Source: Gordius sp. MW1
Taxonomy: Eukaryota; Nematomorpha; Gordioida; Gordea; Gordiidae
Direction of reading: 5' to 3'
DNA: 64,000 nt
Assembly: GCA_964036665.1 (NCBI GenBank)
Contig: OZ038526.1
Coordinates: forward strand, 14,384,001-14,448,000
A model generated the notes under the pieces. It saw nothing but the letters and a program-made list of their open reading frames with translations, did no database searches and had not been told where the DNA came from. The position numbers were made by a program, and so were the translations under genes. How positions within the stretch are numbered: position 1 is the stretch's first letter; every line of letters starts with the position of its first letter. Shown piece by piece: positions 15,546 to 64,000 of this stretch.

Positions 15546-15559
15546 AGACCCCCGGAGAA

Positions 15560-16703: not shown

Positions 16704-17076
16704 TAAACAGCTGACTTGGCGCTCTAAGTGTATTTGCCTGAAGTGAGGGGGAATAGAAGAGTAACTACCTCCTTCCCCCCCCCCTTTCACTCCGTTAAAA
16801 CTAAACGCGCACACTATCCCCCCTTTCCCTCCGTTAATTTGCCAAAAGCATATAAAAATCAATAATAATAAAAAGGGGTTGAGGGATGATCTCCTCCACT
16901 CCCGCCCCCTAATAATACCAACTCAGCGGTGGAAGGGTAAGATAGGGAGGGGTAGGGGTTTAACGTATAATCAATATAAAAATAAAAAACTCGCTACGTA
17001 ATTCAGAGGTAATTTTTATTTAGTATGGTTAGTAATAATGGAAAACTTTGTTAAAAATAGTAATTAATTTAGGCGT

Positions 17077-17640: not shown

Positions 17641-18658
17641 ATTGTTCCATTGGTCAGTACCAAAAGACAATCTATTAATACATAAGAGTCAAAAAAACGC
17701 AAAAAAATTTTCAATTCACACTTTGGCCAATGGTCATTTTTTCCATTGGTCACTACCAGCAGATACTCTATAAGTCAATGTTAGCGAAAAAAAGGAGAAA
17801 AAAAAATTTCACTTCACACTTTGGCCAACGGTCATTTTTTTACAGTGGTCAGTAGCAGCGGACGGCCAAAAAGTCATAATAGCAATGGTAGTAACAGGAA
17901 CAATCATAATAGTCGAAAAAAAACGAAAAAATAAACTTGGATTCACATTTTGGCCAATGGTCATTTTTTCATCGGTCAGCAGCCAGTACACGTTAAAAGT
18001 CGATATAAATACATAAGAGTCAAAACAATAATAAAAAAAAAATTTCGATTCACACTTTGGCCAATGGTCATTTTTTTGCATTAGTCAGCAGCCAGGACAC
18101 GGTAAAAGTGGATATAAATTCATAATAATCAAAAAAAAATGAAAAAAAAATTTTCGAATCACATATTGGCCAATGGTCATTTTTTTCATTGGTCAGCACC
18201 CAACGGAGGGCCAAAAAGTCATAATAGCATCGGTAGTAACAGGAACAATCATAATAATCAAAAAAAAACGAAAAAAAAAGTTTCGAATCACATTTTGGCC
18301 AATGGTCATTTTTTTCCATCGGTCAGCACCCAACGGACGGCCAAAAAGTCATAATAGCAATGGTAGTAACAGGAACAATCATAATAATCAAAAAAAAACG
18401 AAAAAATAAACTTGGATTCACATTTTGGCCAATGGTCATTTTTTTCCATCGGTCAGCACCCAACGGACGGCCAAAAAAGGCATAATAGCAATGGTAGTAA
18501 CAGGAACAATCATAATAATCAAAAAAAAACGAAAAAATAAACTTGGATTCACATTTTGGCCAATGGTCATTTTTTTCATTGGTCAGCACCCAACGGACGG
18601 CCAAAAAGTCATAATAACATTGGTAGTAACAGGAACAATCATAATAGTCAAAAAAAAA
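17641..18658. repeat. ~100-131 bp minisatellite, about 8 copies
   Basis: Repeats of a unit with TTGGCCAATGGTCATTTTTT, CATTGGTCAGCACCCAACGG, ACGGCCAAAAAGTCATAATA, GTAGTAACAGGAACAATCAT and an A-rich tail. GGCCAAYGGTCAT landmarks fall near 17724, 17822, 17952, 18058, 18168, 18296, 18426 and 18557. Spacing is irregular at 98-110 early and 128-131 later, so the last four units are the most recently amplified. Each unit holds an inverted pair CCAATGG...CCATTGG or a close variant of it. Long open frames on both strands here come from the repeat itself and are not genes. Confidence 0.88.
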
Positions 18659-18690
18659 CCCGGGATTCGAACCCAAAAACTGGTTAAATT
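18650..18690 (-). promoter_or_regulatory. tRNA-type B-box with T-run (possible SINE remnant)
   Basis: On the minus strand GGTTCGAATCC (18663-18673) matches the RNA polymerase III internal B-box consensus GGTTCGANTCC. It is flanked so as to form a T-arm-like stem (GGG-TTCGAAT-CCC), and nine T follow (18650-18658), which would serve as a polymerase III terminator. I could not find a matching A-box in the ~110 bases upstream on that strand, so a full tRNA is not present. It may be the 3' part of a tRNA-derived short interspersed element or a chance match. Confidence 0.35.
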
Positions 18691-18714
18691 AACAAAAATT
18701 AAAAGTAAACAAAA

Positions 18715-18772
18715 CAAGACACCGAATGCAAGACACCGAACAAGACAAGACACCGAATGCAAGACACCGAAT
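18715..18772 (+). repeat. Short tandem repeat, GACACCGAA
   Basis: GACACCGAA occurs four times (near 18718, 18732, 18749 and 18763) at 14-17 base spacing, mostly as CAAGACACCGAATG. It lies between the B-box and the right end of the insert. No function is apparent. Confidence 0.8.
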
Positions 18773-18799
18773 AGGGGGACAAACAAAATGGAAAGTGAT

Positions 18800-18818
18800 C
18801 CCATAAATTGCATAGCAA
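18800..18818 (-). repeat. Right 19-bp inverted repeat of the insert
   Basis: CCCATAAATTGCATAGCAA, the exact reverse complement of 15630-15648. Only two bases (TT) separate it from the resumption of satellite A, so this end of the insert probably coincides with a true element end. Confidence 0.7.
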
Positions 18819-18987
18819 TTAACAATCTAAACGCAACTCTAAAATTTTATCTCTCAATCTAAAACTTCCCCTTGTTTAAAAATTCTTATCGAGATTCTAA
18901 CAAGGACATAATGCTAAGAATATTTACTGACTTTTAAAGATTTTTTCAGATTCCTTTCGAAAGAATATGAAAAATAATATTTTTTTC

Positions 18988-39900: not shown

Positions 39901-42900
39901 AGTCATCAAAAATTATTAACTTTAAATCACGATCGCATAGAGCTTGTTTCACAAAAATTAGAGACACGCTTAGAAAGCGATATTGAAACAATCTAAACGC
40001 AACACGAAAATCTTAATTTCTCTTAATCTAAAACTTCGCCTCGTGCAAAAATTCTTATCGAGATTCTAACAAGGACATAACGCTAAGAATATTTATTGAC
40101 TTTTAAAGATTTTTTTAGATTCCTTTCGAAAGAATTTGAAAAATAATATTTTTTTCTACCTCAAAATTATTTCAATTTATTCGTTCAACCATATCGCCCC
40201 CATGAAAGGTTTCGATATAAGAGGTGAATTTTGTAAAAAAAAAAATTTTGATCAGTCATCAAAAATTATTAACTTTAAATCACGATCGCATAGAGCTTGT
40301 TTCACAAAAACTAGAGACACGCTTAGAAAGCGATATTGAAACAATCTAAATGCAACTCTAAAATTTTATCTCTCAATCTAAAACTTCCCCTTGTGTAAAA
40401 ATTCTTATCGAGATTCTAACAAGGACATAATGCTAAGAATATTTACTGACTTTTAAAGATTTTTTCAGATTCCTTTCGAAAGAATATGAAAAATAATATT
40501 TTTTTCGACCTCAAAGTTTTTTCAATTTATTCGTTCAACCATATCGCCCCCATGAAAGGTTTCGATATAAGAGGTGAATTTTGTAAAAAAAAAATTTTGA
40601 TCAGTCATCAAAAATTATTAACTTTTAATCACGATCGCATAAAGCTTGTTTTACAAAAACTAGAGACACGCTTAGAAAGCGATATTGAAACAATCTAAAC
40701 GCAACTCTAAAATTTTAATTTCTCTCAATCTAAAACTTCCCCTCGTGCAAAAATTCTTATCGAGATTCTAACAAGGACATAATGCTAAGAATATTTAATG
40801 ACTTTTAAAGATTTTTTCAGATTCCTTTCGAAAGAATATGAAAAATAATATTTTTTTCGACCTCAAAATTTTTTCAATTTATTCGTTCAACCATATCGCC
40901 CCCATGAAAGTTTTCGATATCAGAGGTGAATTCCGTAAAAAAAAAATTTTGATCAGTCATCAAAAATTATTAACTTTAAATCACGATCGCATAGAGCTTG
41001 TTTCACAAAAACAATAGATCGCCCCCATGAAAGGTTTCGATATAAGAGGTGAATTTTGTAAAAAAAAAATTTGATCAGTCATCAAAAATTATTAACTTTA
41101 AATCACAATCGCATAGAGCTTGTTTCACAAAAATTAGAGACACGCTTAGAAAGCGATATTTTGAAACAATCTAAACGCAACTCTAAAATTTTAATTTCTC
41201 TTAATCTAAAACTTCCCCTCGTGCAAAAATTCTTATCGAGATTCTAACAAGGACATAATGCTAAAAATATTTACTTACTTTTAAAGATTTTTTCAGATTC
41301 CTTTCGAAAGAATATGAAAAATAATATTTTTTTCGACCTCAAAATTTTTTCAATTTATTCGTTCAACCATGTCGCCCCCATGAAAGTTTTCGATATCAGA
41401 GGTGAATTCCGTAAAAAAAATTTTTTGATCAGGCATCAAAAATTATTAACATTAAATCACGATCGCATAGAGCTTGTTTCACAAAAATTAGAGACACGCT
41501 TAGAAAGCGATATTGAAACAATCTAAACGCAACTCGAAAATCGTAATTTCCCTCAATCTAAAACTTCCCCTCGTGCAAAAATTCTTATCGAGATTCTAAC
41601 AAGGACATAATGCTCAGAATATTTACTGACTTTTGAAGATTTTTTCAGATTCCTTTCGAAAGAATATGAAAAATAATATTTTTTTCGACCTCAAAATTTT
41701 TTCAATTTATTCATTCAACCATATCGCCCCCATGAAAGTTTTCGATATCAGAGGTGAATTCCGTAAAAAAAATTTTTTTGATCAGTCATCAAAAATTATT
41801 AACTTTAAATCACGATAGGATAGAGCTTGTTTCACAAAAATTAGAGACACGCTTAGAAAGCGATATTGAAACAATCTAAACGCAACTCTAAAATTTTAAT
41901 TTCTCTCAATCTAAAACTTCCCCTCGTGCAAAAATTCTTATCGAGATTCTAACAAGGACATAATGCTAAGAATATTTACTGACTTTTAAAGATTTTTTCA
42001 GATTCCTTTCGAAAGAATATGAAAAATAATATTTTTTTCGACCTCAAATTTTTTTTAATTTATTCGTTCAACCATATCGCCCCCATGAAAGTTTTCGATA
42101 TCAGAGGTGAATTCCGTAAAAAAAAAATTTTGATCCGTCATCAAAAATTGTTAACTTTAAATCACGATCGCATAGAGCTTGTTTCACAAAAATTAGAGAC
42201 ACGCTTAGAAAGCGATATTGAAACAATCAAAACGCAACTCTAAAATTTTAATTTCTCTCAATCTAAAACTTTCCCTCGTGCAAAAATTCTTATCGAGATT
42301 CTAACAAGGACATAATGCTAAGAATATTTACTGACTTTTAAAGATTTTTTCAGATTCCTTTCGAAAGAATATGAAAAATAATATTTTTCTCGACCTCAAA
42401 ATTTTTTCAATTTATTCGTTCAACCATATCGCCCCCATGAAAGTTTTCAGAGGTGAATTCCGTAAAAAAAAATTTTTTGATCAGTCATCAAAAATTATTA
42501 ACTTTAAATCACGATAGCATAGCTTGTTTCACAAAAATTAGAGACACGCTTAGAAAGCGATATTGAAACAATCTAAACGCAACTCTAAAATTTTAATTTC
42601 TCTCAATCTAAAACTTCCCCTCGTGCAAAAATTCTTATCGAGATTCTAACAAGGACATAATGCTAAGAATATTTACTGACTTTTAAATATTTTTTCAGAT
42701 TCCTTTCGAAAGAATATGAAAAATAATATTTTTTTCGATCTCAAAATTTTTTCAATTTATTCGTTCAACCATATCGCCCCCATGAAAGGTTTCGATATAA
42801 GAGGTGAATTTTGTAAAAAAAAAATTTGATCAGTCATCAAAAATTATTAACTTTAAATCACGATCGCATAGAGCTTGTTTCACAAAAATTAGAGACACGC

Positions 42901-45814
42901 TTAGAAAGCGATATTGAAACAATCTAAACGCAACTCGAAAATCGTAATTTCCCTCAATCTAAAACTTCCCCTCGTGCAAAAATTCTTATCGAGATTCTAA
43001 CAAGGACATAATGCTAAGAATATTTACTGACTTTTAAAGATTTTTTCAGATTCCTTTCGAAAGAATATGAAAAATAATATTTTTTTCGACCTCAAAATTT
43101 TTTCAATTTATTCGTTCAACCATATCGCCCCCATGAAAGTTTTCGATATCAGAGGTGAATTCCGTAAAAAAATTTTTTTTGATCAGTCATCAAAAATTAT
43201 TAACTTTAAATCACGATAGCATAGAGCTTGTTTCACAAAAATTAGAGACACGCTTAGAAAGCGATATTGAAACAATCTAAACGCAACTCTAAAATTTTAA
43301 TTTCTCCCAATCTAAAACTTCCCCTCGTGCAAAAATTCTTATCGAGATTCTAACAAGGACATATTGCTAAGAATATTTACTGACTTTTAAAGATTTTTTC
43401 AGATTCCTTTCGAAAGAATATGAAAAATAATATTTTTTTCAACCTCAAAGTTTTTTCAATTTATTCGTTCAACCATATCGCCCCCATGAAAGGTTTCGAT
43501 ATAAGAGGTGAATTTTGTAAAAAAAAAAATTTTGATCAGTCATCAAAAATTATTAACTTTAAATCACGATCGCATAAAGCTTGTTTCACAAAAACTAGAG
43601 ACACGCTTAGAAAGCGATATTGAAACAATCTAAACGCAACTCGAAATCTTAATTTCCCTCAATCTAAAACTTCCCCTCGTGCAAAAATTCTTATCGAGAT
43701 TCTAACAAGGACTAATGCTAAGAATATTTACTGACTTTTAAAGATTTTTTCAGATTCCTTTCGAAAGAATATGAAAAATAATATTTTTTTCGACCTCAAA
43801 ATTTTTTCAATTTATTCGTTCAACCATATCGCCCCCATGAAAGTTTTCGATATCAGAGGTGAATTCCGTAAAAAAAAATTTTTTTGATCAGTCATCAAAA
43901 ATTATTAACTTTAAATCACGATAGCATAGAGCTTGTTTCACAAAAATTAGAGACACGCTTAGAAAGCGATATTGAAACAATCTAAACGCAACTCTAAAAT
44001 TTTAATTTCTCTCAATCTAAAACTTCCCCTCGTGCAAAAATTCTTATCGAGATTCTAACAAGGACTTAATGCTAAGAATATTTACTAACTTTTCAAGATT
44101 TTTTCAGATTCCTTTCGAAAGAATATGAAAAATAATATTTTTTTCGACCTCAAAATTTTTTCAATTTATTCGTTCAACCATATCGCCCCCATGAAAGTTT
44201 TCGATATCAGAGGTGAATTCCGTAAAAAAAATTTTTTTGATCAGTCATCAAAAATTATTAACTTTTAAATCACGATAGCATAGAGCTTGTTTCACAAAAA
44301 TTAGAGACACGCTTAGAAAGCGATATTGAAACAATCTAAACGCAACTCTAAAATTTTAATTTCTCTCAATCTAAAACTTCCCCTCGTGCAAAAATTCTTA
44401 TCGAGATTCTAACAAGGACATAATGCTAAGAATATTTACTGACTTTTAAATATTTTTTCAGATTACTTTCGAAAGAATATGAAAAATAATATTTTTTTCG
44501 ACCCCAAATTTTTTCAATTTATTCGTTCAACCATATCGCCCCCATGAAAGGTTTCGATATCAGAGGTGAATTCCGTAAAAAAAATTTTTTTGATCAGTCA
44601 TCAAAAATTATTAACTTTAAATCACGATCGCATAGAGCTTGTTTCACAAAAACTAGAGACACGCTTAGAAAGCGATATTGAAACAATCTAAACGCAACTC
44701 GAAAATTTTAATTTCTCACAATCTAAAACTTCGCCTCGTGCAAAAATTCTTATCGAGATTCTAACAAGGACATAATGCTAAGAATATTTACTGACTTTTA
44801 AAGATTTTTTCAGATTCCTTTCAAAAGAATATGAAAAATAATATTTTTTTCGACCTCAAAATTTTTTCAATTTATTCCTTCAACCATAGTTTCGATATAA
44901 GAGGTGAATTTTGTAAAAAAAAATTTTTTGATCAGTCATCAAAAATTATTATCTTTAAATCACGATCGCATAGAGCTTGTTTCACAAAAACTAGAGACAC
45001 GCTTAGAAAGCGATATTGAAAATGAAACTATCTAAACGCAACACGAAAATCGTAATTTCCCTCAATCTAAAACTTCCCCTCGTGTAAAAATTCTTATCGA
45101 GATTCTAACAAGGACATATTTACTGACTTTTAAAGATTTTTTCAGATTCCTTTCGAAAGAATATGAAAAATAATATTTTTTTCGACCTCAAATTTTTTTC
45201 AATTTATTCGTTCAACCATATCGCCCCTATGAAAGTTTTCGATATCAGAGGTGAATTCCGTAAAAAAATTTTTTTTGATCAGTCATCAAAAATTATTAAC
45301 ATTAAATCACGATCGCATAGAGCTTGTTTCACAAAAACTAGAGACACGCTTAGAAAGCGATATTAAAACAATCTAAACGCAACACGAAAATCTTAATTTC
45401 TCTCAATCTAAAACTTCGCCTCGTGCAAAAATTCTTATCGAGATTCTAACAAGGACATATTTACTGACTTTTAAAGATTTTTTCAGATTCCTTTCGAAAG
45501 AATATGAAAAATAATATTTTTTTCGACCACAAAATTTTTTCAATTTATTCGTTCAACCATATCGCCCCCATGAAAGGTTTCGATATAAGAGGTGAATTTT
45601 GTAAAAAAAAAAATTTGATCAGTCATCAAAAATTATTAACTTTAAATCACGATCGCATAGAGCTTGTTTTACAAAAACTAGAGACACGCTTAGAAAGCGA
45701 TATTGAAACAATCTAAACGCAACACTAAAATTTTATCTCTCAATCTAAAACTTCCCCTCGTGCAAAAATTCTTATCGAGATTCTAACAAGGACATAATGC
45801 TAAGAATATTTACT

Positions 45815-45830
45815 AAAGGAATCTGAAAAA
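45815..45830 (-). other. Micro-inversion inside a satellite A monomer
   Basis: AAAGGAATCTGAAAAA stands where the plus-strand monomer should read GACTTTTAAAGATTTTTTCAG and onward. These 16 bases are the reverse complement of the usual TTTTTCAGATTCCTTT and match the sequence found in the inverted block from 46007. About 30 bases of normal monomer are lost. The monomer resumes at TATTATTTTTTTCGACCTC. The position, 190 bases before the large inversion, suggests one event with template switching. Confidence 0.7.
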
Positions 45831-46006
45831 TATTATTTTTTTCGACCTCAAAATTTTTTCAATTTATACGTTCAACCATATCGCCCCCATGAAAGGTTTC
45901 GATATAAGAGGTGAATTTTGCAAAAAAAAAATTTGATCAGTCATCAAAAATTATTAACTTTAAATCACGATCGCATAGAGCTTGTTTCACAAAAACTAGA
46001 GACACG

Positions 46007-49000
46007 ATGATTAAAAACATTTTTTTTTACGGAATTCACCTCTGATATCGAAAACTTTCATGGGGGCGATATGGTTGAACGAATAAATTGAAAAAATTTT
46101 GAGGTCGAAAAAAATATTATTTTTCATATTCTTTCAAAAGGAATCTGAAAAAATCTTTAAAAGTCAGTAAATATTCTTAGCATTATGTCCTTGTTAGAAT
46201 CTCGATAAGAATTTTTCCACGAGGGGAAGTTGTAGATTGAGAGAAATTAAGATTTTCGAGTTGCGTTTAGATTGTTTCAATATCGCTATTAAGCGTGTCT
46301 CTAGTTTTTGTGAAACAAGCTCTATGCGATCGTGATTTAAAGTTAATAATTTATGATGACTGATCAAAAAATTTTTTTTTACGGAATTCACCTCTGATAT
46401 CGAAAACTTTCAAGGGTCGATAAACGAAAAAATTAAAAAAAATTTGAGGTCGTAAAAAATATTATTTTTCATATTCTTTCGAAAGGGGACTGAAAAAATT
46501 TTAAAGTGAGTAAATATTCTTAGCATTATGTCCTTGTTAGAATGTCGATAAAAATTTTTTCACGAGGCGAAGTTTTTGATTGAGAGAAATTACGATTTTC
46601 GTGTTGCGTTTAGATTGTTTGAATATCGCTTCTAAGCGTGTCTCTAGTTTTTGTGAAACAAGCTCTATGCGATCGTGATTTAAAGTTAATACTTTTTGAT
46701 GAAAATTTTTTTTCACGGAACTCACCTCTGATATCGAAAACTATCGTGAGGGCGATATGGTTGAACAAATAAATTGAAAAAATTTTGAGGTCGAAAAAAA
46801 TATTATTTTTGATATTAAAGGATGCTGAAATAATCTTTAAAAGTCAGTAAATATTCTTAGCATTATGTCCTTGTTGAATTTTTGAACGAGGCGAAGTTTT
46901 AGATTGAGAGAAATTAAGATTTTCGTGTTGCGTTTAGATTGTTTCAATATCGCTTTCTAAGCGTGTCTCTAGTTTTTGTGAAACTAGCTCTATGCGATCG
47001 TGATTTAAAGTTAATACTTTTTGGTGAAAATTTTTTTTCACGGAACTCACCTCTGATATTGAAAACTTTCGTGAGGGCGATATGGTTGAACGAATAAATT
47101 GAAAAAATTTTGAGGTCGAAAAAAATATTATTTTTCATATTCTTTCGAAAGGAATCTGAAAAAATCTTTAAAAGTCAGTAAATATTCTTAGCATTATGTC
47201 CTTGTTAGAATCTCGATAAAAATTTTTGCACGAGGCGAAGTTATAGATTGAGAGAAATTAAGATTTTTGAGTTGCGTTTACATTGTTTCAATATCGCTTT
47301 CTAAGCGTGTCTCTAGTTTTTGTGAAACAAGCTCTATGCGATCGTGATTTAAAGTTAATAATTTTTGATGACGGATCAAAAAATTTTTTTTTACGGAATT
47401 CACCTCTGATATCGAAAACTCATAGGGGCGATATGGTTTAACGAATAAATTGAAAAAATTTTGAGGTCGAATAAAATATTATTTTTCACATCTTTCGAAA
47501 GGAATCTGAAAAAATCTTTAAAAGTCAGTAAATATTCTTAGCATTATGTCCTTGTTAGAATCTCGATAAGAATTTTTGCACGAGGCGAAGTTTTAGATTG
47601 AGAGAAATTAAGATTTTCGTGTTGCGTTTAGATAGTTTCAATATCGCTTTATAAGCGTGTCTCTAGTTTTTGTGAGCTCTATGCGATCGTGATTTAAAGT
47701 TAAGAATTTTTGACGACTGATCAAAAAATTTTTTTTTTACGGAATTCACCTCTGATATCGAAAACTTTCATGGGGGCGATATGGTTGAACGAAAAAATTG
47801 AAAAAATTTTTAGTTCGAAAAAAATATTATTTTTCATATACTTTCGAAAGGAGGCTGAAAAAATCTTTAAAAGTTATTAAATATTCTTAGCATTATGTCC
47901 TTGTTACAATCTCGATAAGAATTTTTGCACGAGGCGAAGTTTTAGATTGAGAGAAATTAAGATTTTCGTGTTGCGTTTAGATAGTTTCAATATCGCTTTA
48001 TAAGCGTGTCTCTAGTTTTTGTGAAACAAGCTTTATGCGATCGTGATTTAAAGTTAATAATTTTTGATAACTGATCAAATAAATTTTTTTTACGGAATTC
48101 ACCTCTGATATCGAAAACTTTCATGAGGCGATATGGTTGAACGAATAAATTAAAAATTTTTGAGGTTGAAAAAAATATTATTTTTCATATTCTTTCGAAA
48201 GGAATCTGAAAAAATCTTTAAAAGTCAGTAAATATTCTTAGCATTATGTCCTTGTTAGAATCTCGATAAGAATTTTTGCACGAGGGGAAGTTTTAGATTG
48301 AGTGAAATTAAGATTTTCGAGTTGCTTTTACATTGCTTCAATATCGCTTTCTAAGCGTGTCTCTAGTTTTTGTGAAACAAGCTCTATGCGATCGTGATTT
48401 AAAGTTAATAATTTTTGATGACTGATCAAAAAAGTTTTTTTTACGGAATTCACCTCTGATATCGAAAACTTTCATGGGTCCGATAAACGAAAAAATTAAA
48501 AAAATTTGAGGTCGTAAAAAATATTATTTTTCATATTCTTTCGAAAGGTGACTGAAAAAATCTTTTAAAGTGAGTAAATATTCTTAGCATTATGTCCTTG
48601 TTAGAATGTCGATAAGAATTTTTGCACGAGGCGAAGTTTTTGATTGAGAGAAATACGATTTTCGTGTTGCGTTTAGATTGTTTCAATATCGCTTTATAAG
48701 CGTGTCTCTAGTTTTTGTGAAACAAGCTCTATGCGATCGTGATTTAAAGTTAATAATTTTTGATAACTGATCAAAAAATTTTTTTTTACGGAATTCACCT
48801 CTGATATCGAAAACTTTCATGGGGGCGATATGGTTGAACGAATAAATTGAAAATTTTTGAGGTTGAAAAAAATATTATTTTTCATATTCTTTCGAAAGGA
48901 ATCTGAAAAAATCTTTAAAAGTCAGTAAATATTCTTAGCATTATGTCCTTGTTAGAATCTCGATAAAAATTTTTGCACGAGGCGAAGTTATAGATTGAGA

Positions 49001-49150
49001 GAAATTAAGATTTTTGAGTTGCGTTTACATTGTTTCAATATCGCTTTCTAAGCGTGTCTCTAGTTTTTGTGAAACAAGCTCTATGCGATCGTGATTTAAA
49101 GTTAATAATTTTTGATGACTGATCAAAAAAATTTTTTTTTAAGGAATTCA
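46007..49150 (-). repeat. Satellite A array in inverted orientation (9 monomers)
   Basis: From ATGATTAAAAACAT the satellite reads as its reverse complement. ACGGAATTCACCTCTGATAT landmarks fall near 46029, 46379, 46713, 47039, 47391, 47741, 48090, 48439 and 48786, at intervals of about 326-352 bp. Plus array, a ~60-base unpaired stretch and this block form a large near-palindrome. Units here are more divergent than in the plus array; two are of the TCGGACCC variant also seen at 3872-4150. No gene is present: the minus-strand open frames here are the same monomer frame as on the plus side. Confidence 0.95.
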
Positions 49151-50431
49151 CGTCTTTTGTCGAAATGATAATTTTTGCAGCTTAAAACTTCTTTTCGGGA
49201 GCGAATCGAGGATAATAGGATTCTCAAATTGGCATTCTTTTATATATTTTTTCAGGCTCTTTCACATAAAATAACAAAAATGAATTTTTTTTACCTAAAA
49301 ATTTTTCACATTTTTTCTTTCAACCGTATTCATCCGATGAAAGTTGTCGTTTTAAGACGTGATTTCCATGAAAAAAAGCAAAATTTATGAGAATCAGAAA
49401 ACAATTACTTCGCAAAGAGCAGTTTTTAAAAAGCACTCACGTTGCGATACAACAAACTAATCGCAACAATAAAACGTTCTCTTTTGTCAAAATGATAATT
49501 TTCGCAGCTTAAAACTTCTTTTCGGGAGCGAATCGAGGATAATAGGATTCTCAAATAAGCTTTCTTTTATATATTTTTTCAGGCTCTTTCACATAAAATA
49601 ACAAAAAAGAATTTTTTTTACCTAAAAATTTTTCACATTTTTTCTTTCAAGACGTGATTTCCATGATAAAAAGTAAAATTTTATCAGAATCAAAAAACAA
49701 TTATTTGAAATCATGATCGCAAAGAGCAGTTTTCAAAAATTAAGCAATCACGTTGCGATACAACAAACTAACCGCAACAATAAAACGTTGTCTTTTGTCG
49801 AAATGATAATTTTCGCAGGTTAAAACTTTTTTCCGGGAGCGAATCGAGGATAATAAGATACTCAAATTGGCTTTCTTTTATATATTTTTTCAGGCTCTTT
49901 CACATAAAATAACAAAAAAGAAACTTTTTTACCTTAAAATTTTTAACATGTTTTCTTTCAACCGTATTCATCCGATGAAGTTGCCGTTTTAACACGTGAT
50001 TTCCATGATAAAAAGTAAAATTTTATCAGAATCAGAAAACAAATACTTTGAAATCATGATCGCAAAGAGCAGTGTGCAAAAATTAAGCACTCACGCTGCG
50101 ATACAACAAACTAATCGCAACAATAAAACGTTGTCTTTTGTCGAAATGATAATTTTCGCAGCTTAAAACTTCTTTTCGGGAGCGAATCGAGGATAATAGG
50201 ATTCTCATTGGCTTTCTTTTATATATTTTTTCAGGCTCTTTCACATAAAATAACAAAAAAAAAAAAAATTTTTACCTCAAATTTTCAATTTTTTTTCCAA
50301 CATTTTCATCCGATGAAAGTTGTCGTTTTAAGACGTGATTTTCATGATAAAAAGTAAAATTTTATCAGAATCAGAAAACAAATTACGTTGAAATCATGAT
50401 CGCAAAGAGCAGTGTCCAAAAATTAAGCACT

Positions 50432-50559
50432 CACGTTGCGATACAACAAACTAATCGCAACAATAAAACGTTCTCTTTTGTCAAAATGATAATTTCACGT
50501 TGCGATACAACAAACTAATCGCAACAATAAAACGTTGTCTTTTGTCGAAATGATAATTT
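50432..50559 (+). repeat. 64-bp duplication within satellite B
   Basis: CACGTTGCGATACAACAAAC and the following ~40 bases occur at 50432 and again at 50496. The first copy stops inside AATGATAATTTC and restarts at CACGTTGCG. A partial monomer of 64 bases has been duplicated, which makes the local spacing about 404 bp where 340 is expected. Confidence 0.85.
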
Positions 50560-52261
50560 TCGCAGCTTAAAAGTTCTTTTCGGGATCGAATCGAGGATAA
50601 TAGGATTCTCAAATTGGCTTTCTTTTATATATTTTTTCAGGCTCTTTCACATAAAATAACAAAAAAGAAATTTTTTTACCTCAAATTTTCAATTTTTTTT
50701 CCAACAGTTTTCATCCGATGAAAGTTGTCGTTTTAAGACGTGATTTTCATGATAAAAAGTAAAATTTTATCAGAATTAGAAAACAAATTACGTTGAAATC
50801 ATGATCGCAAAGAGCAGTGTCCAAAATTAAGCACTCACGTTGCGATACAACAAACTAATCGCAACAATAAAACGTTCTCTTTTGTCAAAATGATAATTTT
50901 CGCAGCTTAAAAACTTCTTTTCGGGAGCGAATCGAGGATAATAGGATTCTCAAATTGGCTTTTTTTACATATATTTTTAAGCTCTTTCACAGAAAATAAC
51001 AAAAAAGAAATTTTTTTACCTCAAAATTTTCACATTTTTTCTTTCAACCGTATTCATCCGATGAAAGTTGTCGTTTTAAGACGTGATTTCCATGATAAAA
51101 AGTAAAATTTTATCAGAATCAGAAAACAATTACTTTGAAATCATTATCGCAAAGAGCAGTTTTCAAAAATTAAGCACTCACGTTGCGATACAACATACTA
51201 ATCGCAACAATAAAACGTTGTCTTTTGTCGAAATGATAATTTTCGCAGCTTAAAACTTCTTTTCGGGAGCGAATCGAGGATAATAGGATTCTCAAATTGG
51301 CTTTCTTTTATATATTTTTTCAGGCTCTTTCACATAAAATAACAAAATAGAAATTTTTTTACCTCAAAATTTTCACATTTTTTCTTTCAACCGTATTCAT
51401 CCGTTGAAAGTTGTCGTTTAAGGACGTGATTTCCATGATAAAAACTAAAATTTTTTTAGAATCAGAAAACAGTTACTTTAAAATCATGATCGCACAGAGC
51501 AGTTTTCAAAAATTAAGCACTCACGTTGCGATACAACAAACTAATCGCAACAATAAAACGTTGTCTTTTGTTGAAATGATAATTTTCGCAGCTTAAAAAC
51601 TTCTTTTCGGGAGCGAATCGAGGATAATAGGATTCTCAAATTGGCTTTATTTTATATATTTTTTCAGGCTCTTTTACATAAAATAACAAAATAGAAATTT
51701 TTTTACCTCAAAATTTTCACTTTCTTTCCAACCGTTTTCATCCGATGAAAGTTGTCGTTTTAAGACGTGATTTCCATGAAAAAAAGTAAAATTTTATCAG
51801 AATCAGAAAACAAATTACTTTGAAATCATGATTGCAAAGAGCAGTGTCCAAAAAGTAAGCACTCACGTTGCGAACAACAAACTAATCGCAACAATAAAAC
51901 GTTCTCTTTTGTCAAAATGATAATTTTCGCAGCTTAAAAACTTCTTTTCGGGAGCGAATCGAGGATAATAGGATTCTCAAATTGGCTTTCTTTTATATAT
52001 TTTTTCAGGCTCTTTCACATAAATAAACAAAAAAAATATTTTTACCTCAAAATTTTTCACTTTTTTTCCAATCGTAATCATCCGATGAAAGTTGTCGTTT
52101 TAAGACGTGATTTGCATGATAAAAAGTAAAAATTTATCAGAATCAGAAAACAATTACTTTAAAATCATGATCGCAAAGAGCAGTGTGCAAAAATTAAGCA
52201 CTCACGCTGCGATACAACAAACTAATCGCAAAAATAAAACGTTCTCTTTTGTCAAAATGAT

Positions 52262-53626
52262 AATTTTCGCAGCTTAAAACTTCTTTTCGGGAGCGAATCG
52301 AGGATAATAGGATTCTCAAATTGGCTTTCTTTATATATTTTTTCAGACTCTTTCACATAAAATAACAAAAAATAATTTTTTTACCTAAAAATTTTTCACA
52401 TTTTTCCTTTCAACCGTATTCATCCGATGAAAGTTGTCGTTTTAACACGTGATTTCCATGATAAAAAGTAAAATTTTATCAGAATCAGAAAACAAATACT
52501 TTAAAATCATGATCGCAAAGAGCAGTTTTCAAAAATTAAGCACTCACGTTGCGATACAACAAACTAATCGCAACAATAAAACGTTGTCTTTTGTCGAAAT
52601 GATAATTTTCGCAGCTTAAAAACTTCTTTTCGATAGCGAATCGAGGATAATAGGATTCTCAAATTGGCTTTCTTTTATATATTTTTTCAGGCTCTTTCAC
52701 ATAAAATAACAAAAAAGAAATTTTTTTACCTCAAATTTTCAATTTCTTTCCAACCGTTTTCATCCGATGAAAGTTGTCGTTTTAAGACGTGATTTCCATG
52801 AAAAAAAGTAAAATTTTATCAGAATCAGAAAACAAATTACTTTGAAATCATGATTGCAAAGAGCAGTGTGCAAAAAGTAAGCACTCACGTTGCGAACAAC
52901 AAACTAATCGCAACAATAAAACGTTCTCTTTTGTCAAAATGATAATTTTCGCAGCTTAAAAACTTCTTTTCGATAGCGAATCGAGGATAATAGGATTCTC
53001 AAATTGGCTTTCTTTATATATTTTTTCAGGCTCTTTCACATAAAATAACAAAAAATAATTTTTTTACCTAAAAATTTTTCACATTTTTCCTTTCAACCGT
53101 ATTCATCCGATGAAAGTTGTCGTTTTAACACGTGATTTCCATGATAAAAAGTAAAATTTTATCAGAATCAGAAAACAAATACTTTAAAATCATGATCGCA
53201 AAGAGCAGTTTTCAAAAATTAAGCACTCACGTTGCGATACAACAAACTAATCGCAACAATAAAACGTTGTCTTTTGTCGAAATGATAATTTTCGCAGCTT
53301 AAAACTTCTTTTCGGGAGCGAATCGAGGATAATAGGATTCTCAAATTGGCTTTCTTTTATATATTTTTTCAGGCTGTTTCACATAAAATAACAAAAAAGA
53401 AATTTTTTTACCTCAAATTTTCAATTTCTTTCCAACCGTTTTCATCCGATGAAAGTTGTCGTTTTAAGACGTGATTTCCACGAAAAAAAGTAAAATTTTA
53501 TCAGAATCAGAAAACAAATTACTTTGAAATCATGATTGCAAAGAGCAGTGTGCAAAAAGTAAGCACTCACGTTGCGAACAACAAACTAATCGCAACAATA
53601 AAACGTTCTCTTTTGTCAAAATGATA
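52262..53626 (+). repeat. Dimer duplication in satellite B (~683 bp unit)
   Basis: Two adjacent monomers are repeated as a pair. TTGGCTTTCTTTATATATTT (with one T fewer than usual) occurs at 52321 and 53004. CGATAGCGAATC, replacing the usual CGGGAGCGAATC, occurs at 52631, 52971 and 53653. The variant CACGTTGCGAACAACAAAC, lacking TA, also recurs. The 682-683 bp offset is two monomers. Confidence 0.75.
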
Positions 53627-54599
53627 ATTTTCGCAGCTTAAAAACTTCTTTTCGATAGCGAATCGAGGATAATAGGATTCTCAAATTGGCTTTCTTTTAT
53701 ATATTTTTTCAGGCTCTTTCACATAAACAAACAAAAAAAAATTTTTTACCTAAAAATTTTTCACTTTTTTTCCAATCGTAATCATCCGATGAAAGTTGTC
53801 GTTTTAAGACGTGATTTCCATGATAAAAAGTAAAAATTTATCAGAATCAGAAAACAATTACTTTGAAATCATGATCGCAAAGAGCAGTGTGCAAAAATTA
53901 AGCACTCACGTTGCGATACAACAAACTAATCGCAACAATAAAACGTTCTCTTTTGTCAAAATGATAATTTTCGCAGCTTAAAAACTTCTTTTCGGGAGCG
54001 AATCGAGGATAATAGGATTCTAATTGGCTTTCTTTTATATATTTTTTTAAGCTGTTTCACATAAAATAACAAAATAGAAATTTTTTACCTCAAAAATTTT
54101 ACTTTTTTTCAACCGTTTTGAAAGTTGTCCTTTTAAGACGTGATTTCCATGAAAAAAAGCAAAAATTTATCAGAATCAGAAAACTATTACTTTGAAATCA
54201 TGATCGCAAAGAGCAGTTTTCAAAAATTAAGCACTCACGTTGCGATACAACATACTAATCGCAACAATAAAACGTTGTCTTTTGTCGAAATGATAATTTT
54301 CGCAGCTTAAAACTTCTTTTCGGGAGCGAATCGAGGATAATAGGATTCTCAAATTGGCTTTCTTTTATATATTTTTTCAGGCTCTTTCACATAAAATAAC
54401 AAAATAGAAATTTTTTTACCTCAAAATTTTCACATTTTTTCTTTCAACCGTATTCATCCGATGAAAGCTGTCGTTTTAAGACGTGATTTCCACTATAAAA
54501 AGTAAAATTTTATCAGAATCGAAAACAATTACTTTAAAATCATGATCGCAAAGAGCAGTTTTCAAAAACTAAGCACTCACGTTGCGATACAACAAACTA

Positions 54600-55480
54600 A
54601 TCGCAACAATAAAACGTTGTCTTTTTTCCAAATGATAATTTTCGCAGCTTAAAACTTCTTTTCGGGAGCGAATCAAAGATAATAGGATTCTCAAATTGGT
54701 TTTCTTTTATATATTTTTTCAGGCTCTTTCACATAAAATAACAAAATAGAAATTTTTTTACCTCAAAATTTTCACATTTTTTCTTTCAACCGTATTTATC
54801 CGATGAAAGTTGTCGTTTTAAGACGTGATTTCCATGATAAAAAGTAAAATTTTATCAGAATCAGAAAACAATTATTTTGAAATCATGATCGCAAAGAGCA
54901 GTTTTCAAAAATTAAGCACTCACGTTGCGATACAACAAACTAATCGCAACAATAAAACGTTGTCTTTTGTCGAAATGATAATTTTCGCAGCTTAAAACTT
55001 CTTTTAGGGAGCGAATCGAGGATAATAGGATTCTCAAATTGGCTTTCTTTTATATATTTTTTCAGGCTCTTTCACATAAAATAACAAAATAGAAATTTTT
55101 TTACCTCAAAATTTTCACATTTTTTCTTTCAACCGTATTCATCCGATGAAAGCTGTCGTTTTAAGACGTGATTTGCACGATAAAAAGTAAAATTTTATCA
55201 GAATCAGAAAACAATTACTTTGAAATCATGATCGCAAAGAGCAGTTTTCAAAAATTAAGCACTCACGTTGCGATACAACAAACTAATCGCAACAATAAAA
55301 CGTTGTCTTTTGTCCAAATGATAATTTTCGTAGCTTAAAACTTCTTTTCGGGAGCGAATCAAAGATAATAGGATTCTCAAATTGGTTTTCTTTTATATAT
55401 TTTTTCAGGCTCTTTCACATAAAATAACAAAATAGAAATTTTTTGACCTCAAAATTTTCACTTTTTTAACCGTATGCATC
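54600..55480 (+). repeat. Second dimer duplication in satellite B (~685 bp offset)
   Basis: The linked variants GAATCAAAGATAATAGG and ATTGGTTTTC occur at about 54671 and again at about 55357, and GATGAAAGCTGTCG occurs near 54461 and 55145. An offset of about 684-686 bp is two monomers, so an alternating pair of monomer types has been copied. Confidence 0.65.
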
Positions 55481-58025
55481 CGATGAAAGTTGTCGTTTAA
55501 AGACGTGATTTCCATGAAAAAAAGCAAAAATTTATTAGAATCAGAAAACAAATTACTTTGAAATCATGATCGCAAAGAGCAGTGTCCAAAAATTAAGCAC
55601 TCACGTTGCGATACAACAAACTAATCGCACCAATAAAACGTTATCTTTGTCAAAATGATAATTTTCGCAGCTTAAAACTTCTTTTCGGGAGCAAATCGAG
55701 GATAAAAGGATTCTCAAATGGCTTTCTTTTATATATTTTTTCAGGCTCTTTCACATAAAATAACAAAAAAGAAATTTTTTTACCTCAAAATTTTCAAATT
55801 TTTTTCTAACCGTTTTCATCCGATGAAAGTTGTCGTTTTAAGACGTGATTTCCATGATAAAAGTAAAATTTTATAAGAATCAGAAAACAATTACTTTGAA
55901 ATCATGATCGCAAAGAGCAGTGTGCAAAAATTCAGCACTCACGTTGCGATACAACAAACTAATCGCACCAATAAAACGTTCTCTTATGTCATAATGATAA
56001 TTTTCGCAGCTTAAAACTTCTTTTCGGGAGCGAATCGAGGATAATAGGATTCTCAAATTGGCTTTTTTTACATATATTTTTAAGCTCTTTCACAGAAAAT
56101 AACAAAAAAGAAATTTTTTTACCTCAAAATTTTCACATTTTTTCTTTCAACCGTATTCATCCGATGAAAGTTGTCGTTTTAAGACGTGATTTCCATGATA
56201 AAAAGTAAAAATTTATCAGAATCAGAAAACAATTACTTTGAAATCATGATCCCAAAGAGCAGTTTTCAACAATTAAGCACTCACGTTACGATACAACAAA
56301 CTAATCGCAACTATAAAACGTTCTCTTTTGTCAAAATGATAATTTTCGCAGCTTAAAAACTTCTTTTCGGGAGCGAATCGAGTATAATAGGATTCTCAAA
56401 TTAGCTTTCTTTTACATATTTTTTCAGGCTCTTTCACATAAAATAACAAAATAGAAATTTTTTTACCTCAAAATTTTCACTTTTTTAACCGTATGCATCC
56501 GATGAAAGTTGTCGTTTAAAGACGTGATTTCCTGATAAAAAGTAAAAATTTATCAGAATCAGAAAACAAATTACTTTGAAATCATGATCGCAAAGAGCAG
56601 TGTCCGAAAATTAAGCACTCACGTTGCGACACAACAAACTAATCGCACCAATAAAACGTTCTCTTTTGTCAAAATGATAATTTTCGCAGCTTAAAACTTC
56701 TTTTCGGGAGCGAATCAAAGATAATAGGATTCTCAAATTGGTTTTCTTTTATATATTTTTTCAGGCTCTTTCACATAAAATAACAAAATAGAAATTTTTT
56801 GACCTCAAAATTTTCACTTTTTTAACCGTATGCATCCGATGAAAGTTGTCGTTTAAAGACGTGATTTCCATGAAAAAAAGCAAAAATTTATCAGAATCAG
56901 AAAACAAATTACTTTGAAATCATGATCGCAAAGAGCAGTGTCCAAAAATTAAGCACTCACGTTGCGATACAACAAACTAATCGCACCAATAAAACGTTCT
57001 CTTTGTCAAAATGATAATTTTCGCAGCTTAAAACTTCTTTTCGGGAGCAAATCGAGGATAAAAGGATTCTCAAATCGGCTTTCTTTTATATATTTTTTCA
57101 GGCTCTTTCACATAAAATAACAAAAAAGAAATTTTTTTACCTCAAAATTTTCAATTTTTTTTCTAACCGTTTTCATCCGATGAAAGTTGTCGTTTTAAGA
57201 CGTGATTTCCATGATAAAAGTAAAATTTTATAAGAATCAGAAAACAATTACTTTGAAATCATGATCGCAAAGAGCAGTGTGCAAAAATTCAGCACTCACG
57301 TTGCGATACAACAAACTAATCGCACCAATAAAACGTTCTCTTATGTCATAATGATAATTTTCGCAGCTTAAAACTTCTTTTCGGGAGCGAATCGAGGATA
57401 ATAGGATTCTCAAATTGGCTTTTTTTACATATATTTTTAAGCTCTTTCACAGAAAATAACAAAAAAGAAATTTTTTTACCTCAAAATTTTCACATTTTTT
57501 CTTTCAACCGTATTCATCCGATGAAAGTTGTCGTTTTAAGACGTGATTTCCATGATAAAAAGTAAAAATTTATCAGAATCAGAAAACGAGCAGTTTTCAA
57601 CAATTAAGCACTCACGTTACGATACAACAAACTAATCGCAACTATAAAACGTTCTCTTTTGTCAAAATGATAATTTTCGCAGCTTAAAAACTTCTTTTCG
57701 GGAGCGAATCGAGTATAATAGGATTCTCAAATTAGCTTTCTTTTACATATTTTTTCAGGCTCTTTCACATAAAATAACAAAATAGAAATTTTTTTACTTC
57801 AAAATTTTCACTTTTTTAACCGTATGCATCCGATGAAAGTTGTCGTTTAAAGACGTGATTTCCTGATATAAAGTAAAAATTTATCAGAATCAGAAAACAA
57901 ATTACTTTGAAATCATGATCGCAAAGAGCAGTGTCCGAAAATTAAGCACTCACGTTGCGACACAACAAACTAATCGCACCAATAAAACGTTCTCTTTTGT
58001 CAAAATGATAATTTTCGCAGCTTAA
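55340..58025 (+). repeat. Tetramer higher-order repeat of satellite B (~1356 bp)
   Basis: Two consecutive copies, about 55340-56695 and 56696-58025. Paired variants are CAAAGATAATAGG (55360, 56716), GGGAGCAAATCGAGGATAAA (55687, 57043), TTATGTCATAATG (55984, 57341), GAGTATAATAGG (56380, 57711) and GATTTCCTGATA. The offset is 1356-1357 bp, falling to about 1331 after a 27-base deletion near 57587 in the second copy. Confidence 0.82.
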
Positions 58026-59928
58026 AACTTCTTTTCGGGAGCGAATCAGGATAATAAGATTCTTAAATTGGCTTTCTTTTATATATTTTTTCAGGCTCTT
58101 TCACATAAAATAACAAAAAAAAAATTTTTTTACCTCAAAATTTTCACATTTTTTCTTTCAACCGTATTCATCCGATGAAAGTTGTCGTTTTAAGACGTGA
58201 TTTCCATGATAAAAAGTAAAATTTTATCATAATTAGAAAACAATTACTTTGAAATCATGATCGCAAAGAGCAGTGTCCAAAAATTAAGCACCCACGTTGC
58301 GATACAACAAACTAATCGCACCAATAAAACGTTCTCTTTTGTCAAAATGATAATTTTCGCAGCTTAAAACTTCTTTTCTGGAGCGAATCGAGGATAGGAT
58401 TCTCAAATACTCTTTCTTTTATATATTTTATCAGGCTCTTTCACATAAAATAACAAAAAATAATTTTTTTTACCTAAATATTTTTCACATTTTTTCTTTC
58501 AACTGTATTCATCCGATGAAAGTTGTCGTTTTAAGACGTGATTTCCATGATAAAAAGTAAAAATTTATAAGAATCAGAAAACAATTACTTTGAAATCATG
58601 ATCGCAAAGAGCAGTGTGCAAAAATTCAACACTCACGTTGCGATACAACAAACTAATCGCACCAATAAAACCTTCTCTTATGTCATAATGATAATTTTCG
58701 CAGCTTAAAACTTCTTTTCGGGAGCGAATCGAGGATAATAGGATTCTCAAATTGGCTTTTTTTACATATATTTTTAAGCTCTTTTACAGAAAATAACAAA
58801 AAAGAAATTTTTTTACCTCAAAATTTTCACATTTTTTCTTTCAACCGTATTCATCCGATGAAAGTTGTCATTTTAAGACGTGACTTCCATGATAAAAAGT
58901 AAAAATTTATCAGAATCAGAAAACAATTACTTTGAAATCATGATCGCAAAGAGCAGTTTTCAACAATTAAACACTCACGTTGCGATACAACAAACTTCTC
59001 GCAACTATAAAACGTTCTCTTTTGTCAAAATGATAATTTTCGCAGCTTAAAAACTTCTTTTCGGGAGCGAATCGTGTATAATAGGATTCTCAAATTAGCT
59101 TTCTTTTACATATATTTTTAAGCTCTTTCACAGAAAATAACAAAAAAGAAATTTTGTAACCTCAAAATTTTCACATTTTTTCTTTCAACCGTATTCATCG
59201 GATGAAAGTTGTCGTTTTAAGACGTGATTTCCATGATAAAAAGTAAAAATTTATAAGAATCAGAAAACAATTACTTTGAAATCATGATCGCAAAGAGCAG
59301 TGTGCAAAAATTCAACACTCACGTTGCGATACAACAAACTAATCGCACCAATAAAACGTTCTCTTATGTCATAATGATAATTTTTGCAGCTTAAAACTTC
59401 TTTTCGGGAGCGAATCGAGGATAATAGGATTCTCAAATTGGCTTTTTTTACATATATTTTTAAGCTCTTTTACAGAAAATAACAAAAAATTATTTTTTTT
59501 ACCTAAATATTTTTCACATTTTTTCTTTCAACTGTATTCATCCGATGAAAGTTGTCGTTTTAAGACGTGATTTCCTGATAAAAAGTAAAAATTTATCAGA
59601 ATCAGAAAACAAATTACTTTGAAATCATGATCGCAAAGAGCTGTGTGCAAAAATTCAGCATTCACGTTGCGATACAACAAACTAATCGCATCAATAAAAC
59701 GTTCTCTTATGTCATAATGATAATTTTCGCAGCTTAAAACTTCTTTTCGGGAGCGAATCGAGGATAATAGGATTCTCAAATTGGCTTTTTTTACATATAT
59801 TTTTAAGCTCTTTCACAGAAAATAACAAAAAAGAAATTTTGTAACCTCAAAATTTTCACATTTTTTCTTTCAACCGTATTCATCGGATGAAAGTTGTCGT
59901 TTTAAGACGTGATTTCCATGATAAAAAG

Positions 59929-59974
59929 TAAATTTTATCAGAATCAGAAACTAAATTTTATCAGAATCAGAAAA
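59929..59974 (+). repeat. 23-bp direct duplication within satellite B
   Basis: TAAATTTTATCAGAATCAGA begins at 59929 and again at 59952, a 23-base tandem duplication in the A-rich part of one monomer. It is a small slippage-type event and has not spread to other units in view. Confidence 0.85.
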
Positions 59975-61429
59975 CAATTACTTTGAAATCATGATCGCAA
60001 AGAGCAGTTTTCAAAAATTAAACACTCACGTTGCGATACAACAAACTACTCGCGACAATAAAACGTTGTCTTTTGTCAAAATGATAGTTCTCGCAGCTTA
60101 AAACCTCTTTTCGGAAGTCAATCGAGGATAAAAGGATTCTCAAATTGGCTTAATTTTATATATATTTTTACGCTCTTTCACATAGAATCGAAAAAAATAA
60201 ATATTTTTACCTCAAATTTTTCACATACCGTATTCATCCTATGAAAGTTGTCGTTTTAAGACGTGATTTCCATGATAAAAAGTAAAATTTTATCAGAATC
60301 AGAAAACAAATACTTTGAAATCATGATCGCAAAGAGCAGTGTGCAAAAATTAAGCACTCACGTTGCTATACAACATACTAATCGCAACAATAAAACGTTG
60401 TCTTTTGTCGAAATGATAATTTTCGCAGCTTAAAACTTCTTTTCGGGAGCGAATCGAGGATAATAGGATTCTCAAATTGGCTTTCTTTTATATATTTTTT
60501 CGGGCTCTTTCACATAAAATAACAAAATAGAAATTTTTTTACCTCAAAATTTTCACATTTTTTCTTTCAACCGTATTCATCCGATGAGAGTTGTCGTTTT
60601 AAGACGTGATTTCCATGATAAAAAGTAAAATTTTTGCAGAATCAGAAAACATTACTTTGAAATCATGATCGCAAAGAGCAGTGTCCAAAAATTAAGCACT
60701 CACGTTGCGCAACAAACTAATCGCACCAATAAAACGTTCTCTTTTGTCAAATGATAATTTTCGCAGCTTAAAACTTCTTTTCGGGAGCGAATCGAGGATA
60801 ATAGGATTCTCAAATTGGCTTTCTTTTATATATTTTTTCAGGCTCTTTCACATAAAATAACAAAAAAGAAATTTTTTTACCTCAAAATTTTCAATTTTTT
60901 TTCCAACCGTTTTCATCCGATGAAAGTTGTCGTTTTAAGACGTGATTTTCATGATAAAAAGTAAAATTTATCAGAATCAGAAAACAATTACTTTGAAATC
61001 ATGATCGCGAAGAGCAGTTATCAAAAATTAAGCATTCACGTTGTGATACAACAAACTAATCGCACCAATAAAACGTTCTCTTTTGTCAAAATGATAATTT
61101 TCGCAGCTTAAAACTTCTTTTCGGGAGCGAATCGAGGATAATAGGATTCTCAAATTGGCTTTCTTTTATATATTTTTTCAGGCTCTTTCACATAAAATAA
61201 CAAAATAGAAATTTTTTTACCTCAAAATTTTCACATTTTTTCTTTCAACCGTATTCATCCGATGAAAGTTATCGTTTTAAGACGTGATTTCCATGATAAA
61301 AAGTAAAATTTTATCAGAATCAGAAAACAATTACTTTGAAATCATGATCGCAAAGAGCAGTTTTCAAAAATTAAGCACTCACGTTGCGATACAACAAACT
61401 AATCGCAACAATAAAACGTTGTCTTTTGT

Positions 61430-62080
61430 CGAAATGATAATTTTCGCAGCTTAAAACTTTTTTCGGGAGCGAATCGAGGATAATAGGATTCTCAAATTGG
61501 CTTTCTTTTATATATTTTTTCAGGCTCTTTCACATAAAATAACAAAATAGAAATATTTTTGCCTCAAAATTTTCACTTTTATAAACGTATGCATCCGATG
61601 AAAGTTGTCGTTTAAAGACGTGATTTCCATGATAAAAAGTAAAAATTTATCAGAATCAGAAAACAAATTACTTTGAAATCATGATCGCAAAAAGCAGTGT
61701 CTAAAAATTAAGCACTCACGTTGCGATACAACAAACTAATCGCAACAATAAAACGTTGTCTTTTGTCGAAATGATAATTTTCGCAGCTTAAAACTTTTTT
61801 CGGGAGCGAATCGAGGATAATAGGATTCTCAAATTGGCTTTCTTTTATATATTTTTTCAGGCTCTTTCACATAAAATAACAAAATAGAAATATTTTTGCC
61901 TCAAAATTTTCACTTTTATAAACGTATGCATCCGATGAAAGTTGTCGTTTAAAGACGTGATTTCCATGATAAAAAGTAAAAATTTATCAGAATCAGAAAA
62001 CAAATTACTTTGAAATCATGATCGCAAAGAGCAGTGTACAAAAATTAAGCACTCACGTTGCGCAACAAACTAATCGCACC
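61430..62080 (+). repeat. Near-identical adjacent satellite B monomers
   Basis: Two successive units share AAACTTTTTTCGGGAGCGAA (one short C/T change from the usual), AAATAGAAATATTTTTGCCT and CACTTTTATAAACGTATGCA, at an offset of 341 bp. A further related unit is near 62900. This is a recent single-monomer duplication, in contrast to the dimer and tetramer duplications upstream. Confidence 0.75.
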
Positions 62081-64000
62081 AATAAAACGTTCTCTTTTGT
62101 CAAATGATAATTTTCGCAGCTTAAAACTTCTTTTCGGGAGCGAATCGAGGATAATAGGATTCTCAAATTGGCTTTCTTTTATATATTTTTTTAGGCTTTT
62201 TCACATAAAAGAACAAAAAAGAAATTTTTTTACCTCAAAATTTTCAATTTTTTTCCAACCATTTTCATCCGATGAAAGTTGTCGTTTTAAGACGTGATTT
62301 TCATGATAAAAAGTAAAATTTTATCAGAATCAGAAAACAAATTACTTTGAAATCATGATCGCAAAGAGCAGTGTCCAAAAATTAAGCACTCACGTTGCGA
62401 TACAACAAACTAATTGCACCAATAAAACGTTCTCTTTTGTCAAAATGATAATTTTCGCAGCTTAAAACTTCTTTTCGGGAGCGAATCGAGGATAATAGGA
62501 TTCTCAAATTGGCTTTCTTTTATATATTTTTTCAGGCTCTTTCACATAAAATAACAAAAAATAATTTTTTTACCTAAATGTTTTTCACATTTTTTCTTTC
62601 AACCGTATTCATCCGATGAAAGTTGTCGTTTTAAGACGTGATTTCCATGATAAAAAGTTAAATTTTATAAGAATCAGAAAACAATTACTTTGAAATCATG
62701 ATCGCAAAGAGCAGTTTTCAAAAATTAAGCACTCACGTTGCGATACAACAAACTAATCGCAACAATAAAACGTTGTCTTTTGTCGAAATGATAATTTTCG
62801 CAGCTTAAAACTTCTTTTCGGGAGCGAATCGAGGATAATAGGATTCTCATATTGGCTTTCTTTTATATATTTTTTCAGGCTGTTTCACATAAAATAACAA
62901 AATAGAAATTTTTTTGCCTCAAAATTTTCACTTTTATAAACGTATGCATCCGATGAAAGTTGTCGTTTAAAGACGTGATTTCCATGATAAAAAGTAAAAA
63001 TTTATCAGAATCAGAAAACAAATTACTTTGAAATCATGATCGCAAAGAGCAGTGTCTAAAAATTAAGCACTCACGTTGCGATACAACAAACTAATCGCAC
63101 CAATAAAACGTTCTCTTTTGTCAAAATGATAATTTTCGCAGCTTAAAACTTCTTTTCAAAAGCGAATTGAGGATAATAGGATTCTCAAATTGGCTTTCTT
63201 TTATATATTTTTTCAGGCTCTTTCACATAAAAGAACAAAAAAGAAATTTTTCACCTCAAAATTTTCAATTTTTTTTCCAACCATTTTCATCCGATGAAAG
63301 TTGTCGTTTTAAGACGTGATTTTCATGATAAAAAGTAAAATTTTATCAGAATCAGAAAACAAATTACTTTAAAATCATGATCGCAAAGAGCAGTGTCCAA
63401 AAATTAAGCACTCACGTTGCGATACAACAAACTAATCGCACCAATAAAACGTTCTCTTTTGTCAAAATGATAATTTTCGCAGCTTAAAACTTCTTTTCGG
63501 GAGCGAATCGAGCATAATAGGATTCTCAAATTGGCTTTCTTTTATATATTTTTTCAGGCTCTTTCACATAAAATAACAAAAAATAATTTTTTTACCTAAA
63601 TGTTTTTCACATTTTTTCTTTCAACCGTTTTCATCCGATGAAAGTTGTCGTTTTAAGACGTGATTTCCATGATAAAAAGTTAAATTTTATAAGAATCAGA
63701 AAACAATTACTTTGAAATCATGATCGCAAAGAGCAGTGTGCAAAATTTCAGCACTCACGTTGCGATACAACAAACTAATCGCACCAATAAAACGTTCTCT
63801 TTTGTCAAAATGATACTTTTCGCAGCTTAAAATTTCTTTTCGGGAGCGAATCGAGGATAATAGGATTCTCAAATTGGCTTTTTTACATATATTTTTAAGC
63901 TCTTTCACAGAAAATAACAAAAAAGAAATTTTTTTACCTCAAAATTTTCACATTTTTCCTTTCAACCGTATTCATCCGATGAAAGTTGTCGTTTTAAGAC

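Follow-up and report, generated by a model that had tools for sequence, protein, structure and literature searches.

Two related, separately homogenized satellite families meet within one 64-kb locus of Gordius sp. MW1

The window, by which we mean the whole 64-kb stretch of DNA analyzed, consists almost wholly of tandem repeats of two families, satellite A from 1 to 49151, one insert aside, with satellite B taking up the rest from 49152. Every base was placed by jump-aware alignment to circular A and B consensuses, which gave a segment map of 145 units of A and 47 of B (incomplete units counted) covering about 60.6 kb, with consensus periods of 353 bp for A and 342 bp for B, close to the approximately 352 and 340 bp given in an earlier note on this DNA. 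The A array begins in plus orientation (1 to 15425; 353-bp monomers with truncated units of 122, 208, 244, and 337 bp, repeated in a higher order), is interrupted within one monomer by a noncoding, minus-strand insert of about 3.4 kb with the structure of a putative nonautonomous Helentron (HINE-like; 15426 to 18822), and continues in plus orientation (18814 to 46005), where duplicated blocks lie approximately 3.0 to 3.3 kb apart at 99.0 to 99.9% identity. It is followed by an inverted and more diverged stretch of A on the minus strand (46006 to 49151; 10 monomers, the first partial) and then by the plus-strand B array (49152 to 64000; 342-bp monomers, 47 units including partial ones), which is essentially monomeric and runs off the window. 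The earlier note had placed A and B in the interval from 46007 onward, and both were found there, but it had left unstated that A lies there on the minus strand. The alignment found no B units inside A and no A units inside B in the 64-kb window, and no ORF of at least 100 amino acids was found inside A or B, save one that runs from the insert into A, terminating at 18862. Both families thus form the long head-to-tail, noncoding arrays that characterize satellite DNA. No tRNA or structured RNA origin was found for the repeats of the window, which gave no Rfam match.

Comparison of the two consensuses at their best circular rotation showed that they are colinear over their full length, with 70% identity (236 of 337 ungapped columns), a JC/K2P distance of 0.38, and only about 23 gapped columns in a single colinear rotation. 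This bears out the earlier claim that the landmarks of B follow the order and spacing of those of A; one of the named pairs nevertheless needs correction, since ATGAAAGTTTTCGATATCAG, given as a landmark of A, is a minority variant there, the majority form being ATGAAAGGTTTCGATATAAG. The landmark AAATCAYGATCGCAWAGAGC occurs 103 times in the window against 0 expected. The global alignment score was 254.5, compared with 68 ± 8.5 (maximum, 96) for 200 dinucleotide shuffles of B, and the local score was 142, compared with 25 ± 3.4 (maximum, 42) for 1,000 shuffles; reverse-complemented B scored 24 against A, which is the shuffle level. Each of eight overlapping 60-column blocks outscored every one of the 500 shuffles made from it, and 57 of the 96 G/C positions of A were retained in B against 14.7 expected, thus indicating that the likeness is not one of A/T runs. 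The relatedness claimed earlier therefore withstands both comparison with shuffles and the discounting of A/T runs. The homology spans the full circular unit, whatever start point is chosen, and the two lengths are nearly equal, a full-length colinear similarity above composition-matched chance, as expected of sister families. Taken together, these alignments support a common ancestry of A and B over the whole monomer and an old split. Neither unit showed significant internal dimer structure (A, score of 27 versus 21.7 ± 2.9 for shuffles, maximum of 32; B, 19 versus 22.1).

Within families, near-complete monomers were on average 0.954 identical in A (lowest pair, 0.896) and 0.942 identical in B (lowest pair, 0.889), while near-complete A monomers reached an identity of at most 0.707 with the B consensus. 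In a midpoint-rooted tree of 34 sampled A and 41 B monomers, the two families were fully separate, with no mixing; support on the B side was weak (0.64), probably because midpoint rooting divided the root branch. No hybrid A/B monomers were found in the window. At 101 diagnostic columns, B monomers carried the A base 43 times, against 54 expected from the mutation spectrum, and A monomers carried the B base 284 times, where 244 were expected. These B states in A did not form tracts but lay almost entirely in six columns with high-frequency variants (17, 119, 165 to 167, and 207). Behind the minority variant ATGAAAGTTTTCGATATCAG, approximately 40% of A monomers have T at position 17 and approximately 39% have C at position 27. 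The six polymorphisms whose minority base is that of B may be retained ancestral states or the outcome of rare exchange, and nothing points to exchange still going on between A and B. Overall, identities of 94 to 95% within and 70% between families, the separation of A and B on the tree, and the lack of hybrids in the window uphold the proposal of an old split followed by separate homogenization, with concerted evolution within each family. The two families may be equal sisters, or B may have been founded by an ancient A-type monomer, readings that a midpoint-rooted tree of A and B alone does not separate.

The two arrays are built differently. In A, stretches of 7 to 10 monomers are repeated at 99.5 to 99.8% identity, against a mean of 95.4%, which defines them as higher-order repeats; examples are the blocks at 20185 and 23224, at 25559 and 28829, and at 12830 and 19024. 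The lags between recurring blocks are mostly 9 to 10 monomers or multiples thereof (approximately 3.0 to 3.3 kb, the insert excluded), duplicated A blocks overall are 99.0 to 99.9% identical, and truncated units of 122, 244, and 337 bp are carried along in them. In B, by the same definition, there are no higher-order repeats but only isolated near-identical monomer pairs. Viewed as a whole, A from 1 to 46005 reads as loosely kept higher-order repeats, each about nine monomers long, among which truncated units of 122, 208, 244, and 337 bp recur.

Orientation switches twice, from plus-strand to minus-strand A at 46006 and from minus-strand A to plus-strand B at 49152. The minus-strand arm pairs with the preceding plus-strand A over 3.1 to 3.2 kb at 91%, forming a dyad around 46006 (42107 to 49151), and identity within the minus-strand segment is 0.940, against 0.957 within plus-strand A. 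Comparable macro-dyads have been reported in Tribolium. The idea that the arm was copied, inverted, from a particular plus-strand stretch was discarded, as no plus-strand monomer stands out (closest, 0.93 to 0.97). At the A/B junction (49140 to 49165), minus-strand A ends at phase 32 (..GGAATTCAC) and B begins at phase 169 (GTCTTTTGTCG..), with no foreign DNA between them and an overlap of at most a few bases. Register breaks number 1.9 per kb at 44.8 to 50.5 kb, a zone picked post hoc, against 0.6 per kb elsewhere (binomial P = 0.002), and rearranged B units lie in the first 1.35 kb of the B array. The inversion and the junction, each seen once, may be assembly joins.

The insert, read on its minus strand, carries, within a few bases of its 5' end, a palindromic subterminal repeat, an inverted partner of this repeat (22 of 23 positions) about 200 bp before its 3' end, and a stem-loop, ACGCCC-GAA-GGGCGT, at its 3' terminus. 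Palindromic subterminal inverted repeats combined with a 3' stem-loop are the features by which HINEs, or nonautonomous Helentrons, are recognized (PMC4067079), the insert differing from the mite HINE families of that study in that their 3' repeat lies 38 to 60 bp from the end. When joined, the flanks match an uninterrupted sister monomer at 21469, and the break falls inside a T run (minus strand), giving a T/T target in line with the TT or T-rich sites of HINEs. There is no clear target duplication, a one- or two-base overlap being possible, and the right boundary can be placed only to within about 10 bases, A resuming between 18814 and 18823. The ends thus fit a nonautonomous Helentron (HINE/DINE-like). 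Since the host monomer is of the K type and has its uninterrupted sister at 21469, the insert landed after the K-type A monomer had formed. Inside it are a tandem array of 109- to 130-bp units (17905 to 18659), a 209-bp duplication (17208 to 17630), and a cluster of GC-rich hairpins (15434 to 15600). The sequence GGGATTCGAACCC, on the minus strand at 18655 to 18680, resembles a tRNA T-arm or B box and is perhaps a SINE remnant; tRNA prediction at this site returned nothing.

We consider it very probable that A and B are two separately homogenized families of one satellite lineage in heterochromatin that now abut after rearrangement; we infer that the block is probably pericentromeric or centromeric. 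An ancestral monomer of approximately 340 to 355 bp would have split long ago, and each branch would have been amplified into arrays of its own, kept uniform by unequal exchange and gene conversion, exchange between A and B having presumably ceased when the branches were too diverged or located apart. A would then have been re-amplified recently as blocks of about nine monomers, the higher-order repeats of 3.0 to 3.3 kb, with B staying plainly monomeric. Repair of a double-strand break would most likely have inverted the edge of A and joined it to B, leaving an end-joining-like junction. Monomers at the edges would have escaped homogenization and become more scrambled, with greater divergence as well on the A side, which is to be expected since homogenization is least efficient at array edges. 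The sequence itself documents the homology, the uniformity of each family, the blocks of A, the inversion, and the disorder at the edges; the recombination mechanism, the heterochromatic setting, and the sequence of events are deduced from this architecture. The pair of families is new, but its mode of evolution, that of ordinary satellites, is already known. The locus offers a single-site example of one satellite lineage giving rise to two separately homogenized families, only one of which has higher-order structure, and both array edges and the junction within one sequence allow tests of where homogenization fails. By itself it reveals no functional element.

The nearest published parallels are Drosophila 1.688, TCAST2, and, as discussed below, primate alpha satellite and TmSat1/TmSat2, in all of which branches of one satellite have been homogenized separately. 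Drosophila 1.688 has a monomer of approximately 350 to 360 bp, several subfamilies, and concerted evolution in heterochromatin (PMC7642928); neither A nor B resembled the 1.688 sequence used beyond the level of shuffles, a result that serves as a lead only. TCAST2 of Tribolium castaneum has a 359-bp monomer and separately homogenized subfamilies in pericentromeric heterochromatin (PMC4316633), a likeness by description, Tcast2a and Tcast2b differing by nine substitutions over 179 bp (PMC4316633) and A and B by 30% over the full unit. Searches of viral and prokaryote sequence collections found no relatives; two single 20-base hits, to bacterial genomes, are compatible with chance and showed no similarity beyond those 20 bases. 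A literature search for words of the monomers returned nothing relevant.

Alternatively, B could be the relic of an older array at the flank of a younger A centromere, in the manner of the age-graded layers of primate alpha satellite. In these layers, too, adjacent branches stay unmixed on trees, one has higher-order repeats and the other is monomeric, and divergence is greater at the edge (PMC2729386), a pattern matched here by the higher-order blocks and near-identical duplicates of A, the monomeric state of B, and an inverted A edge that adjoins B and is more diverged than the A core. However, old alpha-satellite layers are only 71 to 85% alike (PMC2729386), and B, whose homogeneity of 94.2% comes close to the 95.4% of A, is thus too uniform for a long-dead layer of this type, its within-family identity indicating that it was homogenized recently. 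Alpha satellite also differs in its 171-bp unit and in the CENP-B box of its new families (PMC2729386), whereas A and B have a unit of approximately 350 bp and no good CENP-B box, and B is not strongly decayed. A relic status of B is therefore unlikely.

In the TmSat1/TmSat2 pair of Tribolium madens, one of the two monomers is 225 bp long. The other, of 704 bp, is composed of seven internal subunits, and the pair resembles A and B in that related, diverged satellites meet in one heterochromatic block (PMC13081366). TmSat1 and TmSat2 subunits are 50 to 74% alike, their arrays show inversions, satellite-only array junctions, and diverged, truncated units at switch points, and their junctions recur thousands of times (PMC13081366), whereas A and B are single-unit monomers of similar length and each of their junctions was seen once. 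We regard it as distinctly unlikely that the inversion at 46006 and the A/B switch at 49152 form a recurring, conserved centromere junction cassette of the genome, as in T. madens; if they did, the large dyad symmetry, rather than the monomer sequence, would be selected.

A separate origin of A and B, each from its own copy or subfamily of a single transposable element and not from one ancestral satellite, is very improbable. Satellites are known to come from internal repeats of Helentrons and from other elements (PMC7492417, PMC12628747), and a Helentron-like element with tandem repeats does sit in the A array. Yet independent tandemization would yield differing unit boundaries, while A and B are homologous across the full circular unit at nearly the same length; moreover, apart from its flanks the insert resembles neither A nor B, and the arrays gave neither long ORFs nor an Rfam match.

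The earlier note had put forward the best-preserved blocks, which include ACCTCAAAATTTT and AAATCAYGATCGCAWAGAGC, as candidates for functional constraint. Under constraint, conserved columns should be clustered and short of new mutations in both families. In tests whose power is limited by there being two families only, matches were not significantly clustered along the alignment (P = 0.10 to 0.24 for windows of 5 to 60 columns), the best-conserved windows being what random placement yields, and rare variants, with base type allowed for, were not depleted in conserved relative to diverged columns (A, P = 0.51 to 0.72; B, P = 0.28 to 0.42). Likewise, none of the four named blocks stood out or showed a deficit of rare mutations in either family. 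There was a weak regional contrast, identity being approximately 0.57 inside alignment columns 111 to 260 and approximately 0.72 outside them; the lowest 150-column window (from column 115) had an identity of 0.56 (permutation P = 0.025, uncorrected for window size). Mean diversity in A was lower at conserved than at diverged columns (0.040 versus 0.065; circular-shift P = 0.02), but the same contrast was not significant in a rank test (P = 0.16), and B showed no difference. A search of the consensuses for a CENP-B box gave no good match, the best agreeing at 11 of 17 positions and the best cores, 7 of 9 in A and 6 of 9 in B, lying at different places in the two families. Functional constraint on the shared blocks is thus unsupported, and there is very little likelihood that selection on protein-binding blocks has maintained the similarity between A and B. 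Chance resemblance between AT-rich sequences is ruled out for practical purposes, since A and B, both about 70% A+T with A/T runs, align far above the shuffle maximum and share so many G/C positions.

Phasing of AA/TT at 10 bp was not detected in A and reached P = 0.035, uncorrected, in B. In B, both at 49752 to 49780 and in the consensus, a short loop is enclosed by a perfect 8-bp inverted repeat, GTTGCGAT..ATCGCAAC, which A lacks at the corresponding position.
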